Below, piece after piece: positions 1,984 to 11,243 of a stretch of DNA of 43,952 bases. The stretch lies in NCBI GenBank assembly GCA_022826515.1, contig JAJDUT010000076.1, positions 1 through 43,952 of the forward strand, in the 5' to 3' direction. Position 1 is the first letter of the stretch. Each line of letters begins with the position of its first letter. A program made the translations under genes and the position numbers. The notes under the pieces are model-generated. The model made no database searches and was not told the origin of the DNA. It saw only the letters and a list, made by a program, of their open reading frames with translations. The DNA is from Candidatus Latescibacterota bacterium. Lineage in GTDB: Bacteria > Latescibacterota > UBA2968 > UBA8231.

Positions 1984-3171
1984 ATGGAACCTTTATTGGA
2001 CGGCGTGCGGGTGCTCGACTTGACGCGGGTGTTGGCCGGGCCGTACGCGTCCATGGTGCTGGCCGATTTGGGCGCGGAGGTGATCAAGGTCGAGCTACCG
2101 GGTACGGGCGATGAGGCGCGGGGATTCGGGCCGTTTCAAAACGGCGAGAGCGCGTACTTTGCCAGCGTCAACCGGGGCAAGAAGAGCGCGACGATCGACT
2201 TGCGGCAGGCGCAGGGCCAAGACTTGGCGCGGCGTTTGGCCGGTGAGTGCGACGTGTTGATTGAGAATTTTCGTCCCGGTAGTATGGAGCGATTTGGATT
2301 GGGATACGCGGACCTACACGCGCTGTATCCGCGCTTGGTGTACGCGTCGATTTCGGGTTTTGGCCAGACTGGCCCGTACGCGCAGCGGCCCGCGTACGAT
2401 GTGCTCATTCAGGCGATGGGGGGGCTGGCCAGCATCACCGGGCAGCCCGATGGGCCGCCGGTGCGGGTCGGCTCGTCGATTGCCGATTTGAGTGCGGCGC
2501 TCTTTGGAGCCATTGGCATTCTCGCGGCCTTAGAGCGGGCGCGGCGCACCGGCGAGGGGCAGCAAGTCGATATTTCCATGCTCGACTGTCAGGTGGCGCT
2601 GCTGGAAAACGCCCTCGCCCGCTACGCCGTATCTGGCGAAGTGCCCCAGCCGCTCGGGTCGCGGCATCCGGCCATTACGCCTTTTCAGTTTTTTGCTGCC
2701 AGTGATGGCTATATCGTCATTGCCGCGGGCAATGATAGGCTCTGGCGTCAGTTCTGCGACGCCTTGGGCCTCGGCGCACTGGCCGACGATCCGCGCTTTG
2801 CCAGTAATGCGCTCCGCACCGAGAATCACGCGGCGTTGGAGCCGGTGCTGGAACGGGTGCTGGCCGAGAAAACCGTTGATGAGTGGTGCTCTATACTAGC
2901 TGAAGCCGGCGTGCCGAGCGGGCCGTTGTGCGATGTGGGGCAGGTCTTTAGCGATGAGCAGGTGGCGGCGCGGGATATGATCGTCGAACTGGAGCATCCA
3001 GTCGCGGGCCGACAGACGGTGGCCAATTCGCCGCTGCGTTTTTCCGCGACACCGGTCGAGTTGCGCGGGCCAGCGCCCTTGTTGGGGCAGCACACCGAGG
3101 AGGTCTTAAGTGGCGTTTTGGGGCTGACGGAAGGGGAGATGGAGGGGTTGCGGGATGAGGGGGTTATATGA
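1984..3171 (+). CDS. CoA transferase family III (CaiB/BaiF)
   Basis: A full-length (395 residues) family III acyl-CoA transferase. It has the N-terminal signature GVRVLDLTRVLAGPYASM, the conserved LGAEVIKVE and NRGKKS segments, and the IENFRPG motif. Asp201 in the VDISMLD stretch aligns with the catalytic aspartate of formyl-CoA/oxalate CoA transferase. These enzymes move CoA between carboxylic acids through aspartyl-CoA intermediates in the cytoplasm. A clear ribosome site (AAGGAGATTGAG) precedes the ATG, only 1 nt after the GHMP kinase stop, so the two form an operon. The acid substrate cannot be read from the sequence. The TGA overlaps the start of the next, broken membrane gene (ATGA). 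Confidence 0.95.
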   Translation: MEPLLDGVRVLDLTRVLAGPYASMVLADLGAEVIKVELPGTGDEARGFGPFQNGESAYFASVNRGKKSATIDLRQAQGQDLARRLAGECDVLIENFRPGSMERFGLGYADLHALYPRLVYASISGFGQTGPYAQRPAYDVLIQAMGGLASITGQPDGPPVRVGSSIADLSAALFGAIGILAALERARRTGEGQQVDISMLDCQVALLENALARYAVSGEVPQPLGSRHPAITPFQFFAASDGYIVIAAGNDRLWRQFCDALGLGALADDPRFASNALRTENHAALEPVLERVLAEKTVDEWCSILAEAGVPSGPLCDVGQVFSDEQVAARDMIVELEHPVAGRQTVANSPLRFSATPVELRGPAPLLGQHTEEVLSGVLGLTEGEMEGLRDEGVI

Positions 3172-3449
3172 GAGGCGGGGAACGCGCTCTAAACAGTCCG
3201 GTTGGGACCTCGGATCGCATCGAGAGCTTGGATGTGCTACGCGGCTTTGCCGTGCTCGGTATATTGGTCATGAACATCCAAGCGTTTGCAATGCCTATGG
3301 CTGCGTACTTTAACCCCACGGCATACGGCGATCTCAGCGGTAGCAACTTTTTTACTTGGCTGGTTGGCTACTTGTTCGTCGACCAGAAGTTTTTGTCGAT
3401 GTTCTCGCTTCTTTTTGGTGCCGGCATCTGCTTGTTCCCGAGAGGGTAG
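3168..3449 (+). pseudogene. Truncated DUF418 membrane protein (5' remnant)
   Basis: The 93-residue product begins like DUF418/YeiB-type membrane proteins: RIESLDVLRGFAVLGILVMN (first helix, residues 17-36), then a second hydrophobic segment and KFLSMFSLLFGAGI (about 75-88). Family members run to roughly 380-430 residues with many membrane segments; here the frame stops just after the second conserved motif. No continuation is seen in another frame before the promoter of the next gene at 3530. The ATG overlaps the CoA-transferase stop (ATGA), so this was once the third gene of that operon. I read it as an operon end truncated by insertion or deletion next to the accessory block. A functional short protein is unlikely. 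Confidence 0.7.
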
Positions 3450-3529: not shown

Positions 3530-3558
3530 TTGACTTGGGTTGGGTGTTCGGCTAGTAT
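3530..3558 (+). promoter_or_regulatory. Sigma70-type promoter for the Uma2 gene
   Basis: TTGACT at 3530-3535, a 17-base spacer and TAGTAT at 3553-3558 fit a vegetative promoter. Transcription would start near 3565, shortly before the ATG at 3590. This also excludes the longer reading frame that opens with the TTG inside the -35 box. Confidence 0.6.
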
Positions 3559-3589
3559 CAGATCTAACTCCAACAGCAAAGTTTCTATT

Positions 3590-4141
3590 ATGACTGAACA
3601 AATGGTTGCCCCGATGACCGCCGCCGAACTGCTGGCGATGCCGCACAATGGCTATCGCTACGAACTTGTACAAGGAGAATTGCGCCAGATGGCACCTGCC
3701 GGCAGACAACACGGACGTATTGCCGCCAATTTTATTGGCAGCCTAATTGCATTTGTCAAAGAACATAATCTGGGGGAAGTGCATTCGTCGGAGACCGGCT
3801 TCATCATTGACACCGCGCCCGATACAGTTCGTGCGCCCGACGTCAGCTTTGTGTCGCGGGAACGCGCTGAGGCGACCGCAGAAGAACGGGGTTTTTTCCC
3901 CGGCGCACCCGACCTCGCCGTTGAGGTCATTTCGCCCAATGATCGCTACAGGGAAGTGGAAGAGAAAGTGTCCGACTGGCTGCGGGCGGGTACGCAGATG
4001 GTCGTTGTGATCGATCCCTACCAACGCACCATAGCGGTGTACCGCGCTCCCGACGATATTTGTATTCTCACCGAAGGGGATGTGCTCGACGGCGGCGATG
4101 TGGTGCCGGGGTGGAAGATGCCGCTGGCAGACGTGTTCTAA
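3590..4141 (+). CDS. Uma2 family (DUF820) putative endonuclease
   Basis: 183 residues of the Uma2/DUF820 family, which has a restriction-endonuclease-like PD-(D/E)XK fold and is very abundant in cyanobacteria and in some uncultured phyla; its cellular role is not established. Visible marks are the N-terminal MTAAELLAM and the NGYRYELVQGEL segment, RAPDVSFVSRER, then PDLAVEVISPND (second catalytic acid region) and EVEEKVSDWLRAGTQMVVVIDP. The start at 3590 is preferred over an upstream TTG because the TTG is part of a good promoter and family members start near this point. It stands alone at the left edge of the accessory block, facing the minus-strand DprA-like gene, and may itself be a mobile or horizontally acquired gene. 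Confidence 0.9.
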   Translation: MTEQMVAPMTAAELLAMPHNGYRYELVQGELRQMAPAGRQHGRIAANFIGSLIAFVKEHNLGEVHSSETGFIIDTAPDTVRAPDVSFVSRERAEATAEERGFFPGAPDLAVEVISPNDRYREVEEKVSDWLRAGTQMVVVIDPYQRTIAVYRAPDDICILTEGDVLDGGDVVPGWKMPLADVF

Positions 4142-4168: not shown

Positions 4169-5443
4169 TCAGATCGGAAGGGACAACTGTTTATCCTTCG
4201 GACTCGTTTGATCGGACAGTTCAAAACACACCGGCCGCAACTTCTTGATGACCACTTTTTGCTCGATAGCCCTGTTCATCCAAGCGTCGAATTGCGACTT
4301 CTTAAGGCCATAGTGTTTTTCTAACTCTGTTTTTTTGATAGCCCCATTGGCAAGTCGTGTGCGGAGCGATTGAATGAAGTGCCCGTATAGGTCAGAGCTG
4401 TCTGATGGCACCTGCGGGCTGATGTGCGCGGGTTGTTCCGAGACTTTACCGGCACCAGAAGGAGCGGCCTCTACTTCAGTGGCTGCATATAAGGAGTTGT
4501 CCTCTATCTGCTCTGATGAGGCGGCTGGTTGATCCGAGGCACAGAGCCGCTGGATTACCTCCTGCGGGGGACCTTGTGCATGATGGACGCTTAAAAGGGC
4601 CGTATTGCCAGAACCATCACTGTCTTGGCGGACCCAGATTGGCACCCATTGTTTCTTCATGTTCTCAATGGCACCTTCCCAAGTGCCACCTTTTATACCG
4701 GAATGAACAACTAACGCTCTATCGGACAGGCAGTAGATGTACTTGTTCCTTTGCATGGCCCTGCCGACGGTGAAACCTGTCTCGGGGTTAAATGACGATA
4801 TCAGCACCAGATCCTGGGACCGCAGATGGGAGCGGTACATCTTACTTGACGACGCACGTAGCAGGCTGTCCGCAAGAATGCCGACAACAGTGCCTCCCTT
4901 ATCCAGTGCCCCGAACATTGCGGCTTGGTCAATTCCCCTTGCTCCGCCTGATACGACGGAGTAACCGGCAGCAGCCACAGCCTCGCCGAATAACCGAGTC
5001 CAAGAAAGATCGCGATCCGAGGCTTTTCGAGAGCCGACGACCGCGATTCCTCCAGAGCACAGCAGCGTTCGGCGACCGCAGCCGTATAGCACCGCAGGGG
5101 ATGCTCGGCCAAGTCGCTTCTTCAAGCGTTCCGGATAGTCCTCGTCAGCACTCGTCAACCACCATAAGCCAGCTTGCGCCCACCGATCCTTGGCAAGCCC
5201 CAAGGCACTTCCTCGGTCTAGAAGCCTCTTGATCCGCTCCGTAGTTCCTCTAGGGTCGGGTCTGCCTCCCAAGACTTCATCCACATTCTCTAAGAGGTAT
5301 TCTAGGGTTGCATCCCGTTCCTTGAGCCAGTTTGCGAATGCCCACCATTCTTCCGTCGTTAAAGGTTTCGCTCCGTTGTCATCAGAGCCGGAAAGGTGTG
5401 CCGTCAGGAGCAGCACCGCATCGCTGTTACCAGATGTAGCCAT
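4169..5443 (-). CDS. DprA/Smf-like SLOG-fold protein
   Basis: 424 residues. The core resembles the Rossmann/SLOG domain of DNA-processing protein DprA: a YPERLKKRL...PAVLYGCG lead-in (about 102-122), AVVGSRKASDRD (about 132-143), SVVSGGARGIDQAAM (about 163-176) and the GGTVVGILADSLL strand. A MQRNKYIYCLSDRALVVHSG segment follows, matching DprA's 'RNriIa.LS....VvEa'. The C-terminus (about 350-410) looks like a winged-helix or helical DNA-binding domain. Canonical DprA loads RecA on incoming single-stranded DNA. This protein diverges in the ligand loop, has an extended tail and sits beside a large helicase, so a defence or DNA-sensing role is a reasonable inference (DprA-like proteins occur in ShosTA-type systems). 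AGGAGG lies 6 nt before the ATG. A 20-bp element shared with the 11.2-kb region lies just upstream. Confidence 0.85.
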   Translation of the reverse strand: MATSGNSDAVLLLTAHLSGSDDNGAKPLTTEEWWAFANWLKERDATLEYLLENVDEVLGGRPDPRGTTERIKRLLDRGSALGLAKDRWAQAGLWWLTSADEDYPERLKKRLGRASPAVLYGCGRRTLLCSGGIAVVGSRKASDRDLSWTRLFGEAVAAAGYSVVSGGARGIDQAAMFGALDKGGTVVGILADSLLRASSSKMYRSHLRSQDLVLISSFNPETGFTVGRAMQRNKYIYCLSDRALVVHSGIKGGTWEGAIENMKKQWVPIWVRQDSDGSGNTALLSVHHAQGPPQEVIQRLCASDQPAASSEQIEDNSLYAATEVEAAPSGAGKVSEQPAHISPQVPSDSSDLYGHFIQSLRTRLANGAIKKTELEKHYGLKKSQFDAWMNRAIEQKVVIKKLRPVCFELSDQTSPKDKQLSLPI

Positions 5444-5489
5444 TTCAACCTCCTGTGCTTGCTAATGCTAGCTCCCTAACGAGGCGAAT

Positions 5490-5509
5490 AAAACAGCGTC
5501 AAGCTCAAG
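5490..5509. repeat. 20-bp direct repeat, copy 1
   Basis: AAAACAGCGTCAAGCTCAAG is identical at 5490-5509 and 11244-11263, in the same orientation. Both copies lie upstream of a minus-strand gene (47 nt before the DprA-like gene, 134 nt before the AAA/nuclease gene). Read on the minus strand it contains TTGAGC/TTGACG, so it may be a shared promoter or operator; alternatively it marks the ends of an inserted block. Confidence 0.6.
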
Positions 5510-5511
5510 TC

Positions 5512-5558
5512 AAGGGCGGCCATCTCAGCACGTCGAGATGGCCGCCCTTTTTGTTTTC
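5512..5558 (+). terminator. Strong stem-loop with 3' T-tract (plus-facing)
   Basis: A perfect 15-bp stem (5512-5526 with 5535-5549, AAGGGCGGCCATCTC and its complement) with an 8-nt loop is followed by a T-rich run on the plus strand. It is a textbook intrinsic terminator for rightward transcription, yet both flanking genes are on the minus strand. Read leftward there is no T-tract immediately after the stem, so termination of the helicase message would be weak. Confidence 0.6.
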
Positions 5559-5610
5559 ATCGCTGATAAGCAGCTTTGAGGATTTTGGTCGGGGATGTTG
5601 GAACGGTACC

Positions 5611-8600
5611 TCAGAAAGCCTCAGCGTCTTGCGCTGACTGGGCTTCCTTCAGAATACGACCAAAACTAGTAGCTTCGTAACGTACATTTAAATAACTCTC
5701 AGAGGCGGAGGATGCCATTGCGTCTACTGTAATAGAAGAAAGAGGATCATGTCCCTCAAAATAATAAAACTTGACTAATTCACGGTCGCCGTCCGCCAGC
5801 GCCCGCAAAAAGTCGTCGTCGCGATTCCAGTTACTAGAGGACTTTAAGTAGTCAAAAGTCTGGGCGATTCCAGCTCGATTTCCTGATACTGACTCATTTA
5901 CAATATGTCTGAGATTCACCCCGTACTTGCCATCTAGGGACTTAACAACACGGTCAAAGGTACCTCGAACAGCGTTGCCATACTTATCATTCTTGTTGGT
6001 CTTTCCAAACGCAACGATTTTAAGTATTCCTAGCTCATCATGTACAGAGACACTATAAAAGTCAAATAGAGGATGGGGGTTTGGGGGATTATAAACGCTG
6101 TATTCATACAGAATTCCACCTATTACATTCGAGGGATCACCTAAATCTATACCCTGCAAGGGACCCGCCTCAAGCGGCAGTCCAAAAGGAGAGGGTGCAT
6201 TATTCATAATAACTCCGGGTGGGTTAGTAGAGCGTGAGTGCTCTACACCTTTGGAAGGGGAAGAGGGAGAGGGTTCAGAAAGTGGTTTGGAAGGCGACGC
6301 GGGCGGCAAGTAGGTCGGACCACTGGCAATGGGACGTAACTTGTCAAGCTCTCCACCCGGAACAACGCGACCTTGCTGTTTCATCTTGAGCAGAATACTT
6401 CGCAGAAGAGAGCGTGCTGGCAAGCGCTTGTCTAAGTGGGTCAGATTAGCAAGCACCACAAAGTGTTCCTGCGCTCTACTAACCGCGACGCTGATCAGAC
6501 GCGCCCCAACATGGTCGGGCGGCACCCCCTGCACGAACTGTCCGATAGCTCTACGTCCGCCGCTTTCGGGAATTTCCAACAGTACAATTCGACGTTCGTC
6601 ACCTTGAAAACGATGGACTGTTCCGCAATGCACTAAGTTGTCGGGGCTATCTTCTTTGAGCAGCTTTTGGATATGGCGTGCCTGTGCGGCATAAGGTGTG
6701 CAGATGCCGAGGTCGTGGTTGGTTTCTACCACACCGTTCAGTCGAAGATGTCGCACAAAGTTGCTCACGAGCAAGGCATGGAGTTTGTTCAAGCGTGAAA
6801 AGGAAGCATTATGGCTCTCGACCGGCCTAAGATCCGACGTGTCGATGATGGTGAGCGGCTTTTCAAACGGATTTGGTGGCAAACGACCGAGTACCTTTTT
6901 TCGTGCTGGGGAGGTCCTCAGTTTACCTTCGTACATTGGCTCGGAGATAAGTCCACAGATCTCAGGGTGCATCCGGTACTGGGTGGTCAGCATTATCAGG
7001 CCGGGAGCATCGGGTTTTGTCCGTTCTGTTGCGGTGAAGGGATCAAGCCCTAGCTCTTGGAAGATTGCTTCCTGCTCGGTATTCACAATAGGTGGTATCT
7101 GACGAAAATCGCCTGAGATCACCACTCGTTCGCTCGCCAGACCAGCCGAGAACCATACCGCTGGTCGGAAAACCATTGATGCTTCCTCAACGATAACCAA
7201 GTCAAATTGGCCGATTTCCTTAGTGAGGTATGCTTTAGTACAGGTTGCTCCAACGATCCTCGCATCCTGTAGCTCTGTCTTCCCAAGGGCTGAGAACTCT
7301 GCCTCTATTTTGCGTATTTGGGTGCCCAACTCATCGCGTTGCTGTTTGGACTTGTCGACGATGGCCTGTGCATTCGTCTTATCTTCACCGGCCACAGCGG
7401 ATTGGAGATCATCACGCATTTGCTCGGCCTGATCGGAGCGCTGGATAGCCGTCGCACTTTGTTCCTTAAACTCTCTGATGCGCATCTCGATCCGTAGGGA
7501 CTCCAGCGCATCGCGTTGAATGTTATGGGACAATTCCTTCTTTAACGCTTCACCTTTACGGAAGGTTTGGTTGATGTTTTGCATCTCCGTTTTGACACGC
7601 CGCTCTGCTTCGTCGAGAGCTTTAAATTGGGCAAGACATTGTTGCGCGTGCTGAGTCTCGGCGTCAACCCGTGCGATCTTTTTCTTAAGTTGTCGCTTTT
7701 TCTCTTTTAGCTCGGCTGTGTGCCGTCCCATGGTGTCATATTCTCCAAGCGCTGCGATTTCTTTTTCAAGTTGCTTCTTTCTTTGAGGTGTCTTCCCAAG
7801 TGTTGCGATTTCTTTTTCAAGTTGCTTCTTTCTTCGCACTGTCTTCTCAAGTGCTGCGATCTCCGCTTCTGTTTTGCGTAATTCGGTGCCCAACTCATCG
7901 CATTGCTGTTTGAATTTCTGAGTCTCGGCATCCACCTGTGCGATCTTTTTCTCAAGTTGCTCCTTTTTCTCCGCTAGCCCGGCTGAACGCCGTCCGACAA
8001 TCTCATCGATTACTACATATTTGCGATATTCAGACTCCAGTTTGTCATCGGCGATGCGGCCTAAACGAACAACCTTACCTTCCTCCATGGCGGGGTGCTC
8101 ATGGGTAAGTGTTTCGCAAATCTTATAGAGAACTTGATCTACGGCCTTGTTCGTATTGGAGCAGATCAACGTTCGCTTCCCGCTGTTGAACGCCGAGCGC
8201 ACAATCGCACTTAACGTCATGGTTTTGCCGCAACCGGGAGGCCCCCAAATGAACATTAGTGCCTCCCTAAGTGCAGCCTGATAGACTTTACGCTGACTGG
8301 CGTCTAATTCAGAACCGTCACCCGCCCGGATTGGACGAGCGGGCCTTTTGGGCGAGACACCCGGCTGGACTACCGCATCGGCGAGGGTGCGGTTGAGCGT
8401 GATTTCTCCTTTATTGACCGCTTCGATTTTCTCCTTGAGTGCCGCCAACAAACGAGTCGCATCAATCAGCAGCACCGCAGAGCGCACCTCGTTGCCGATG
8501 CCCTTCTTCAGGGCCAAGATCAGATGGCTAGCCCCAATCGACGCAATCGTTCCCTCGACCCGCCGCTGACCGACTTGAATCTCGATCTGAGCTTCCAAAA

Positions 8601-8961
8601 ACAGTTCCACCTCGTCGGTAAAAGGAAAATGGTAGAGAATGTCACCGCCGGCTGTCTCGATACGACGGCCCGCTTTAAGCTCATATCGTCTATAGCCCGT
8701 TCCAGTTGCCTTCATTTCTCGGATTAGCTCTCCGAGAGCCGCAATGAAGCGATCTGGAATATCCGCATCGGCGGATAGGTCCAATGAAACTTCTTGTTTA
8801 AGCGGCCGTTCATATGCATTCGGCAAGCCCGTTGTTCCGGGAGGACGAATCTTGGGACGGGAAGAGGTCTCAGATGGTGGCTTGGGAGGTGGCACGTCAA
8901 ACTTGTCTCTTTTATGATTTGATAGATAGGCTTCCCACCAGCGTCTCTGGCTGACGGTCAC
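5611..8961 (-). CDS. SF1 (UPF1/DNA2-like) helicase with long coiled coil
   Basis: 1116 residues. The N-terminal region (1-225) is uncharacterised. The helicase core has Walker A GPPGCGKT (240-247), a Walker B variant LVIVEEAS (Glu592-Glu593 instead of Asp-Glu), motif III SGDFRQIPP, QYRMHPEI, TVHRFQGDE (motif V) and VAVSRAQEHFVVL (motif VI). These identify an AAA_11/AAA_12-type superfamily 1 helicase. Between Walker A and B lies a long charged coiled coil (about 320-560) built from repeated segments. After a Pro/Ser-rich linker (about 884-910) comes a C-terminal domain of about 190 residues that I do not recognise. The start is a GTG directly preceded by an in-frame TGA, without a clear ribosome site. 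It precedes the DprA-like gene by 167 nt on the same strand; a joint nucleic-acid defence role is inferred, not shown. Confidence 0.9.
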   Translation of the reverse strand: MTVSQRRWWEAYLSNHKRDKFDVPPPKPPSETSSRPKIRPPGTTGLPNAYERPLKQEVSLDLSADADIPDRFIAALGELIREMKATGTGYRRYELKAGRRIETAGGDILYHFPFTDEVELFLEAQIEIQVGQRRVEGTIASIGASHLILALKKGIGNEVRSAVLLIDATRLLAALKEKIEAVNKGEITLNRTLADAVVQPGVSPKRPARPIRAGDGSELDASQRKVYQAALREALMFIWGPPGCGKTMTLSAIVRSAFNSGKRTLICSNTNKAVDQVLYKICETLTHEHPAMEEGKVVRLGRIADDKLESEYRKYVVIDEIVGRRSAGLAEKKEQLEKKIAQVDAETQKFKQQCDELGTELRKTEAEIAALEKTVRRKKQLEKEIATLGKTPQRKKQLEKEIAALGEYDTMGRHTAELKEKKRQLKKKIARVDAETQHAQQCLAQFKALDEAERRVKTEMQNINQTFRKGEALKKELSHNIQRDALESLRIEMRIREFKEQSATAIQRSDQAEQMRDDLQSAVAGEDKTNAQAIVDKSKQQRDELGTQIRKIEAEFSALGKTELQDARIVGATCTKAYLTKEIGQFDLVIVEEASMVFRPAVWFSAGLASERVVISGDFRQIPPIVNTEQEAIFQELGLDPFTATERTKPDAPGLIMLTTQYRMHPEICGLISEPMYEGKLRTSPARKKVLGRLPPNPFEKPLTIIDTSDLRPVESHNASFSRLNKLHALLVSNFVRHLRLNGVVETNHDLGICTPYAAQARHIQKLLKEDSPDNLVHCGTVHRFQGDERRIVLLEIPESGGRRAIGQFVQGVPPDHVGARLISVAVSRAQEHFVVLANLTHLDKRLPARSLLRSILLKMKQQGRVVPGGELDKLRPIASGPTYLPPASPSKPLSEPSPSSPSKGVEHSRSTNPPGVIMNNAPSPFGLPLEAGPLQGIDLGDPSNVIGGILYEYSVYNPPNPHPLFDFYSVSVHDELGILKIVAFGKTNKNDKYGNAVRGTFDRVVKSLDGKYGVNLRHIVNESVSGNRAGIAQTFDYLKSSSNWNRDDDFLRALADGDRELVKFYYFEGHDPLSSITVDAMASSASESYLNVRYEATSFGRILKEAQSAQDAEAF

Positions 8962-9094: not shown

Positions 9095-9149
9095 CTATTC
9101 ATAGTGTGTCCACAGGCAGAGCACCTGTAAAGACCAGCTTCCAACTCAC
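9095..9149 (-). pseudogene. Relic of a YoeB/Txe-type toxin
   Basis: Directly overlapping the antitoxin stop (GTGA at 9146-9149) is a GTG followed by seven codons giving (V)SWKLVFT, the typical YoeB/Txe beginning. The frame then drifts. A few bases on, in another frame, the codons VLCLWTHYE and a TAG stop appear (9124-9095), matching the family's usual C-terminal '(S/L)xWtHYe'. About 70 middle residues, including the catalytic region, are missing. The toxin appears to have been removed by an internal deletion, leaving both tips. Confidence 0.5.
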
Positions 9150-9388
9150 CAGTCGGGTTCCTCGGCGCACCCCTCTATGGGCGTTTTCAGGCCCTCGATG
9201 ACAGATTCACGCATTCCGGGAATGGAAAGCAAGTGCAGCGTCTCCTGAATCGAACGCCAATCGCCCTCGGCAATGAGAATCGCCGATCCTCGCTTGCTAT
9301 GGAGGCGAAGATGTTTTCTGCCTGCGGCTACTTGCTCTAGGAGCTTGTACAGCTCAGGACGTGCTTTGGTTACGTTGATCGTCGTCAA
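9146..9388 (-). CDS. Phd/YefM family antitoxin
   Basis: 80 residues with the YefM/Phd pattern: TTINVTKARPELYKLLEQV at the N-terminus (DNA-binding dimer part), a GSAILIAEGDWRSIQETLHLL central motif region, and a short acidic C-terminal tail that in the family wraps the toxin. Such antitoxins neutralise RelE/YoeB-type mRNA interferases and repress their own operon. The start is a TTG, since an in-frame TAG lies three codons upstream and no ATG is available. The cognate toxin downstream is reduced to a relic, so this is an orphan antitoxin. It sits between the AAA/nuclease gene and the helicase on the same strand. Confidence 0.85.
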   Translation of the reverse strand: MTTINVTKARPELYKLLEQVAAGRKHLRLHSKRGSAILIAEGDWRSIQETLHLLSIPGMRESVIEGLKTPIEGCAEEPDW

Positions 9389-9562: not shown

Positions 9563-11110
9563 TCACGCCTGCTCCACGTCAAATGCCGCGATATTGCACT
9601 CGTCCTTGCTGAACTCCACGGCGATCAGGTGAATCGGCTGCCCCAAGGCGCGGTACTTATCCGCGTAGCGCCGCTCCTGTAACTGCGCCATCGCCGCACC
9701 CGCTGACGCCAGTTCGACGACCTTGAACTCGAACAGATAGACGTGGTTGTTGAACAGAACCGCCATGTCCAAGCGGCCGTGGCTGCTACTGTCCTCTACC
9801 GTGATGTTCAACCCCAATCCTGCAAAGTAGGAGTAGAACACGCTGGCGTAGTAGCCCTCGTAGCGGGCGATGTCGTTGTTGGTGTACCACTCGTAGGGAA
9901 TGCTAGCGAAAAAGGCGTGAAACAGCGTCTCCAGCCCGGCGAAGTCGTTGGCTTCTAACAGCCGATACAGCCGCACGCTGTTGGCCATCTGCCGCGTCGA
10001 ATCCCGCACGAGATAGCGCAGCAGGCTCTCGTTGAGGCTCTGGCGCACCTCTTGGTTGGGATAGCCTAGGCGATAGAGGGCCTTGCCGCCCAAGTCCTCC
10101 TCGTCGGTTATCGTCAGGTAGCCGGTCTGGAACAGCAGCGCCTCGGTGGCGATGTCATCGACATCGAAGGTCGATAGCAGTTCGTCGCTGCCCTCCATCG
10201 CCCCGAGTTCTAAGGAACTGACGCGGCGCTTGAACAGCGTTTCGACTAGGAATGTCGGCGTCTTGGTCTCGAACCAGTACGCACCAAACTGGCGCTTGTC
10301 GAACAGCAGCAGGATGTCGAAGGGGTTGTACACCTTCTCATCGCCGAGCCAACTATAGCCGTTGTACCGGTCGCGGATCTGGTCCCGGTCCAAGCCCGGC
10401 AACTCCGGCGCGAACACTCGGTCCAAGTCCGCGTCCGTGTAGCCGCAGATAGCCGAATAGCACGGGTCCAAGGTGATGTCGGTGAGATTGTTGAGGCCGG
10501 AAAATAGGCTGCCCTTGAAAAACTTGCTCACCCCGGTGAGGAACGTGAATTGGATGTGCGCGTCGCAGTCCTTGATGCCCGAATACAGGCCGAGCAGAAA
10601 GTCGCGATGGGCACGGGCGACCTCCGGCGTATCTAGCGCATCCAAAATCGGCTTGTCGTATTCGTCGATTAGCACGGCGACCGGCTGCCCGGCTTGGTCG
10701 TGTAGGGCCTCTAGCAGAAAGGCAAAACGGCCGGGTGCCGTGGCGTACTCGGAGACAATCCCCGCCCGGCGTTCGGCCGCGGCGAGTTGCTCCATGAGCG
10801 TGGCCTCTAAGTAATCGGGTTCTTTGAAGTTGCCGCTGCCAAAGCTGAGGCGCAGCACCGGATGGCGAATTGACCAGTCCCAACGGTCGTGAATGTACAG
10901 TCCCTCAAACAGCGGCTCGTTGCCCTCGAACAACTCTTTGAGCGTATCCAAAAACAGACTCTTGCCGAAGCGCCGTGGACGCGACAGGAAGTAGTGAGTG
11001 CCCTCGTCGAGCAGCCGGCCGATGTAGCCGGTCTTATCGACGTAGTAGCAGTCCTCCTCTCGAATTTTATGGAAGGTCTGAATGCCGATGGGCAGTCTGC
11101 GTTTGCTCAT
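9563..11110 (-). CDS. AAA-ATPase-like/PD-(D/E)XK nuclease protein (DUF1703 type)
   Basis: 515 residues from the ATG at 11110, chosen because AAGGAG lies 7 nt upstream; a longer frame to 11146 has none. The N-terminus carries PIGIQTFHKIREEDCYYVDK and the phosphate loop SRPRRFGKS (43-51) of the AAA-ATPase_like family. The middle has VLIDEYDKPILDA (Walker B-like) and FTFLTGVSKFFKGSLFSGLN. The C-terminus has a PD-(D/E)XK nuclease core, HGRLDMAVLF (about 443-452) and YLFEFKV (about 457-463). The family is widespread in Bacteroidetes and host-associated or uncultured bacteria, often in many copies; its function is not settled, with proposals including defence and mobility. It is the first gene of the minus-strand accessory block, and one copy of the 20-bp repeat lies upstream. 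Confidence 0.93.
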   Translation of the reverse strand: MSKRRLPIGIQTFHKIREEDCYYVDKTGYIGRLLDEGTHYFLSRPRRFGKSLFLDTLKELFEGNEPLFEGLYIHDRWDWSIRHPVLRLSFGSGNFKEPDYLEATLMEQLAAAERRAGIVSEYATAPGRFAFLLEALHDQAGQPVAVLIDEYDKPILDALDTPEVARAHRDFLLGLYSGIKDCDAHIQFTFLTGVSKFFKGSLFSGLNNLTDITLDPCYSAICGYTDADLDRVFAPELPGLDRDQIRDRYNGYSWLGDEKVYNPFDILLLFDKRQFGAYWFETKTPTFLVETLFKRRVSSLELGAMEGSDELLSTFDVDDIATEALLFQTGYLTITDEEDLGGKALYRLGYPNQEVRQSLNESLLRYLVRDSTRQMANSVRLYRLLEANDFAGLETLFHAFFASIPYEWYTNNDIARYEGYYASVFYSYFAGLGLNITVEDSSSHGRLDMAVLFNNHVYLFEFKVVELASAGAAMAQLQERRYADKYRALGQPIHLIAVEFSKDECNIAAFDVEQA

Positions 11111-11243
11111 GGCTGTCTCCTTGGCTCTTAATCTGCTTGCGGCCACTTCAGCGCAGAGTTGTGCGATGGCTTTGGTAGGGCTGGCTGGGTCCTCGTATTA
11201 TCTTAATGGTCGGCGTTAGCGTACTCAATATCGACGAGAGTAC

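Follow-up and report, generated by a model that had tools for sequence, protein, structure and literature searches.

Two neighbouring genes on the minus strand of a 43,952-nt stretch of DNA from Candidatus Latescibacterota (the window), one for a UPF1-like SF1 helicase and the other for a DprA-like protein, are best explained, with a probability of about 75%, as the remainder of a larger SF1 helicase, PsyrT and PsyrA locus, a derivative of deletion and recombination within a chromosomal defence hotspot. The sequence shows that psyrT was lost by deletion, leaving psyrA without its toxin in the window. The original prediction, made from the sequence alone, was a two-gene defence module of the nucleic-acid-sensing type. 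The membership in defence families, the hotspot and a recurring SF1-PsyrTA link agree with it, but the pair does not appear to be a self-contained new module, since one half is the named antitoxin PsyrA, of which the partner gene psyrT is deleted. Both open reading frames were confirmed at the predicted positions and strands with zero internal stops. All features are listed in Table 1.

Table 1. Features of the window discussed in the text, numbered from its first letter.
Feature	Position	Strand	Description or evidence
Uma2	3530-4141		Pfam
PsyrA-type DprA-like (SLOG) antitoxin, orphan (psyrT absent)	4169-5443	-	424 aa, ATG start, one C-terminal repeat unit
Recombination block common to window and G001	5433-6490	.	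5 differences in 1,058 bp
psyrT 3'-end remnant	5445-5478	-	reads ..ELALASTGG-stop; alignment to G004 psyrT tail
Deletion junction	~5475-5480	-	TAGG common to both sides
Former helicase-psyrT spacer	5475-5610	-	spacer alignment to G005; 15-bp inverted repeat at 5512-5549
UPF1-like SF1 helicase, Mokosh-like core, without PLD	5611-8961	-	1116 aa, GTG start; Pfam, PADLOC, AlphaFold2, Foldseek
C-terminal module CTDA (label coined here)	5614-6207	-	residues 919-1116, about 200 aa
Helical coiled-coil-like insert between Walker A and Walker B	7264-8010	-	residues ~318-566; AlphaFold2; variable length among relatives
Phd/YefM antitoxin	9146-9388		Pfam
AAA-ATPase_like + PDDEXK_9	9563-11146		Pfam

The DprA-like protein matched PsyrA (PDLC03927) in PADLOC over residues 1-408 with an E-value of 1.6e-131, and Pfam detected DNA_processg_A (residues 89-263) and LDcluster4 (SLOG). 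Its sequence identifies the protein as PsyrA, which is the antitoxin in the PsyrTA (RqlHI) toxin-antitoxin and defence system. PADLOC bore out that both proteins belong to defence-associated families. One partner matches a named system (PsyrTA), which counts partly against the predicted module. A canonical competence DprA beside an unrelated helicase, to which the DprA domain in Pfam would point, is very improbable: the NCBIfam dprA score was 94.3 bits against a cut-off of 191.15, relatives carry separate canonical-type DprA genes besides the PsyrA type, and in the tree the PsyrA and canonical-type rows fell on opposite sides with split support of 100/99 (midpoint root, with long-branch warnings). 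Grouping with canonical DprA had been named beforehand as a finding that would speak against a defence module; the NCBIfam score and the tree came out against such a grouping. The DprA-like query gave matches in 42 of 60 relative genomes, mostly to the separate canonical-type DprA.

The extended C-terminal tail predicted for the DprA-like protein is present, and it consists of a unit of about 65 aa that occurs in up to five copies in relatives. Among 74 close relatives (P0001-P0074), 0 to 5 copies were detected, one copy in 28 and three in 36, and the copies within one protein were often highly alike; P0075, a more distant relative, carries four units. RqlI, the E. coli ortholog, is described as having a C-terminal helix-turn-helix (PMC4670107, cited here and below from the available part of its text). 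The unit number was rejected as a marker of PsyrT loss: the single-unit P0039 probably shares a contig with P0121, a SF1-PsyrT fusion, because their contigs have the same size.

In the helicase, AAA_11 starts at residue 219 and AAA_12 covers residues 656-839 in Pfam. Walker A occupies residues 240-247, and Walker B, as VEEAS, begins at residue 591. The AlphaFold2 model (mean pLDDT 76.5, pTM 0.60) placed long helices at residues 318-387, 408-480, 485-522 and 528-566 between these two motifs, supporting the predicted insertion of a coiled coil there. PADLOC gave MkoA first (E 2.2e-65) and MkoC next (E 1.6e-33), Foldseek with the model returned Setx, IGHMBP2 and UPF1, and the top matches in the PDB by sequence were IGHMBP2 (SMUBP-2) and UPF1. 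At residues 591-595 (positions 7177-7191) the Walker B reads EEAS where DEAS is usual; EEAS was found in 4 of 127 proteins (the window protein, P0121, P0123 and P0145), two of which are PsyrT fusions, and DEAS in 114, the other nine being missed by the pattern.

Evidence for the loss of psyrT lies in the gap between the two genes. In the relative genome G005, the gene order is SF1 helicase, 141-bp spacer, psyrT and psyrA. The gap in the window is 167 bp, of which 136 bp show 90% identity to the G005 helicase-psyrT spacer in an alignment that extends nearly up to the psyrT start, while the last ~34 bp match the 3' end of psyrT from G004 in 30 of 34 columns, with an alignment score reached by none of 2000 letter shuffles. 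Because the old spacer runs directly into the final 34 bp or so of psyrT, the gap is a deletion scar: psyrT was deleted between helicase and psyrA, with its last codons remaining. By tblastn, no PsyrT match with E<=1 was detected anywhere in the 43,952 nt, although the genome may carry a copy elsewhere. The scar is the same in G001, and psyrT is likewise absent there, the search for PsyrT in this genome giving only helicase-domain matches of 27-41% identity. An AGGAGG sequence, resembling a ribosome site, is located inside the psyrT remnant just ahead of the psyrA start, and the interval 5300-5750 yielded no promoter-like site. The hairpin in the former spacer was rejected as a terminator, the pattern scan finding one such structure against 0.7 expected by chance, with a T-run on the plus side only.

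Besides the deletion, the sequence comparison indicates recombination within the helicase gene. Residues 1-850 show 94-100% identity per 50-residue block to the SF1-PsyrT fusion P0121, with P0123 mostly as close and G001 at 52-92%; from about residue 851 to 1116 the protein departs from the fusions and shows 98-100% identity to G001 and P0128. The block shared almost unchanged with G001 contains both CTDA and the psyrT scar, while nearby 300-bp segments are 73-96% and the wider surroundings about 89-98% identical to G001. The window helicase is thus a chimera of a fusion-type head and a CTDA-allele tail. Import of the deletion haplotype into a fusion-type allele would fit these data, and so would replacement of the head within a scar-bearing allele. 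Whichever the route, the C-terminal module of the helicase was changed through recombination, since the head matches SF1-PsyrT fusions and the tail, together with the scar, matches the CTDA allele.

Different C-terminal modules are also found among the helicase homologues, of which 120 of a total of 157 were classified with profiles built here, those for PLD and RQC-HRDC being made from one sequence each. PLD was found in 59 of the 120, C-terminal CTDA in 35 (14 with an additional N-terminal copy, and some matches partial), a PsyrT fusion in 10 (two with RQC-HRDC in between), RQC-HRDC without PsyrT in one, and no recognised C-terminal module in 15, most of which are shorter than 1,000 aa. One example, a 1885-aa fusion (L024:11172-16829), carries the SF1 core, RQC, HRDC, HTH_40 and PsyrT, and psyrA follows directly. 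P0173 and P0174 resemble this fusion, P0174 containing the start of PsyrT only. In the window helicase, PLD was detected neither among the 25 best Pfam rows nor with the one-sequence PLD profile, and CTDA is present instead.

CTDA was modelled with a pLDDT of 82.8 and a pTM of 0.81. Pfam gave no family above cut-off for the tabulated member (best E 0.019 across all 20), and a sequence search of the PDB gave no match. The fold matches, PsbP, LpqN, DcrB and Mog1, are weak, and a missing or weak match does not amount to a new fold; a Mog1p/PsbP-like fold is one candidate. If the resemblance holds, CTDA would more likely be a binding than a catalytic domain. Elsewhere in the relatives, CTDA occurs as a free-standing gene or at the helicase N-terminus. 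Both forms are present in one locus (L022:7572-11032), where the N-terminal copy is accompanied by a separate 200-aa CTDA gene downstream.

The genomic distribution was examined in relative genomes, of which G001, sharing 28% of sampled 31-mers with the window, was the nearest compared. A total of 10 PsyrA loci were analysed (G001, G003, G004, G005, G021, G030, G031, G034, G040 and G041), and a PsyrT-family open reading frame or piece was located immediately upstream of PsyrA in nine. The six of these nine that were scanned all matched PsyrT in PADLOC with E 9.3e-185 or better, and the remaining three (L058, L061 and L063) matched a custom PsyrT profile made from four of the other loci. Some copies are damaged: in G034 PsyrT is split, in G031 its beginning is missing and in G021 it is reduced to a 3' piece; PsyrA is split in G040 and its match in G021 has an internal stop. 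PsyrA adjoins a SF1 helicase in three of the ten loci (G001, G003 as a PsyrT fusion, and G005) and is without the SF1 family in seven, within the stretches examined. Conversely, three of the six strong SF1 loci (G001, G002, G003 twice, G005 and G009) have PsyrA in the stretch and three do not (L021, L022 and L023, the last being an entire 12-kb contig). Helicase-psyrA adjacency without PsyrT was detected in the window and G001 alone, two loci that have the scar and the recombined block in common. The predicted pairing is not general across genomes, which also counts partly against the predicted module.

A phylum-wide search of 64 genomes found the SF1 family in seven, which belong to a single genus and include two weak cases; the PsyrA family was found in 13, including three weaker cases. 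Nine of the 74 close PsyrA proteins are on a contig of exactly the same size as that of a SF1 homologue, in a comparison covering 63 of the 120 helicase rows, which suggests that these nine pairs lie on one contig each. On contigs of at least 20 kb, 31 of 40 close PsyrA proteins had no SF1 homologue with an equal contig size among the 63 compared rows, counting against a general PsyrA-SF1 link.

On this evidence we can also weigh a functional two-gene system, in which PsyrA restrains the SF1-CTDA helicase as it does PsyrT. Both genes are intact in the window and G001, the SF1-PsyrT fusions (10 of the 120 classified homologues) imply that PsyrA may meet the SF1 core in other alleles, and UPF1-like helicases of CoCoNuT systems are proposed, in the accessible portion of PMC11090510, to act with winged-HTH effector partners. 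The arrangement was, however, produced by deletion, SF1-CTDA occurs without PsyrA (L022 and L023) and PsyrA without SF1 in seven of ten loci, and the partner demonstrated for RqlI is RqlH, not a SF1 helicase (PMC4670107). Such a system is therefore unlikely. A broader proposal carries equally low odds: the UPF1-like core would be an interchangeable chassis, its modules (PLD, PsyrT, RQC-HRDC-PsyrT and CTDA) would be swapped by homologous recombination at one hotspot, PsyrA with its variable HTH-like units would be a regulator shared by the chassis whatever the module, and the window would hold a working SF1-CTDA/PsyrA system.

Under the preferred reading, that of a locus that lost psyrT, the SF1 core would be a nucleic-acid-engaging motor or sensor, and the attached module, be it CTDA, the PLD nuclease or PsyrT including its phosphoribosyltransferase domain, would execute or regulate the response. 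The SF1-CTDA loci without PsyrA suggest that the helicase with this module may retain a defence function by itself. With no cognate target in the window, PsyrA would most likely be an antitoxin that was orphaned recently. Its retention would be due either to chance or to the protection it gives when alleles with PsyrT recombine into the site.

The reading frame of PsyrA is intact in both orphan cases, the window and G001, and dN/dS between them is 0.29, close to the 0.28 between the PsyrT-bearing G005 and G003; the remaining pairs gave 0.16 to 0.32. These values are consistent with continued use and count against a plain remnant. As decisive proof of a functional orphan they were rejected, the scar being located in a recently recombined block, and, with a recent spread of the scar being possible, dN/dS does not establish maintenance. 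A sharper form of the preferred reading, with odds overlapping those of the reading itself, assigns the orphan an anti-addiction role against PsyrT alleles circulating at the hotspot. PsyrT-bearing alleles are indeed found at the same site in the same genus (G003 and G005), recombination is visible there and the PsyrA frame is intact, but a recent loss of psyrT explains the intact frame equally well; we regard this role as possible yet rather doubtful.

The site is bounded by a caiB-like gene (1984-3171) on one side and P450 and 124-aa genes on the other. It is empty in G002, G007 and G010, carries SF1 cargo in G001, G003, G005, G009 and the window, and in G008 is occupied by a type III-B CRISPR-Cas system (L106:6477-13714; Cas10, Cmr3, Cmr4, Cmr6/Cmr1); three of the 11 genus members, with no caiB-like match at the cut-off, are left out of this count. 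The predicted defence island is thereby borne out as a defence hotspot, and Pfam agreed with the predicted neighbours, Uma2, antitoxin and AAA/nuclease. The SF1 cargo of G003 is on two contigs, suggesting that the bin is mixed, and the PLD-type SF1 gene of G002 sits elsewhere, on contig C96. No toxin gene was noted beside the Phd/YefM antitoxin, which is also present in L023, L024 and L066 and could be a second orphan antitoxin. The AAA-ATPase/PDDEXK_9 gene, intact in the window, is in two frames in G001 (L066:6826-8409). The gene at 3168-3449, presumably of DUF418 type, is shortened to 93 aa in the window, while L024 keeps 319 aa and L066 408 aa. In L021:8946-13204, a nucleotidyltransferase and a HEPN protein, forming a MNT-HEPN-like pair, come after a SF1-PLD (Mokosh II-like) helicase.

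What appeared to be a new system has thus become a readable case of defence-locus remodelling, with a scar, an orphaned antitoxin and a block of effector-end exchange. The locus would be a PsyrTA system that has lost its toxin and lies next to a Mokosh-like helicase whose tail is of another kind, and neither the presence of PsyrA nor that of a helicase with DprA can be equated with an intact system. Mokosh-like SF1-PsyrT fusions, at least one of them beside psyrA (L024), connect two named defence systems, and suggest that the SF1 motor may drive or gate PsyrT.

Among the known systems, PsyrTA (RqlHI) is composed of PsyrT, a RecQ-like helicase with phosphoribosyltransferase, and the DprA-like PsyrA. 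The window PsyrA matches at full length, and the order of toxin then antitoxin is kept in relatives; in contrast, psyrT is deleted in the window, and in some relatives a SF1 helicase lies upstream or is fused. In E. coli, RqlH, the PsyrT ortholog, is genotoxic via its PRTase domain and is bound and restrained by RqlI, the PsyrA ortholog, and the rqlH and rqlI genes do not always occur as a pair (PMC4670107). After PsyrA itself, the best PADLOC match of the window protein is ShosA (E 5.2e-24), and the solved ShosA structure 9vzo matches by sequence. Identity with ShosTA was rejected, this match being much weaker than that to PsyrA and no ShosT match being present in the five proteins scanned.

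The SF1 core matches MkoA and then MkoC of Mokosh, of which the domain content is given in PMC10952713 (available part), and the close relative L021 combines helicase and PLD. Different from Mokosh type II, the window helicase has CTDA in place of the fused PLD, and a separate PLD protein like MkoB of type I was not found among the four neighbours scanned (PsyrA, Uma2, Phd antitoxin and AAA-PDDEXK_9). MkoC and PsyrT appear together in a helicase list in the accessible part of PMC12278908. The helicase CnuH of CoCoNuT, as described in the available text of PMC11090510, is likewise a UPF1-like SF1 helicase, with varied effectors around it and an insert after Walker A that bears a coiled coil, and the window helicase shares the insert; the layout is therefore not new. 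The modules here, CTDA and PsyrT, are different, the likeness is one of layout, and no annotation like the McrB/McrC-type partners CnuB and CnuC was found in the five proteins scanned. Titles and abstract openings searched held no description of a SF1-PsyrT fusion, the original PsyrTA and Mokosh reports being outside the coverage, and no paper joined PsyrTA with DprA and helicase or with 'orphan antitoxin' in a search with most subscription papers outside its coverage. Relative to these systems, what is new is the link between SF1 helicase and PsyrT, by adjacency or fusion, together with the swapping of C-terminal modules among the relatives.
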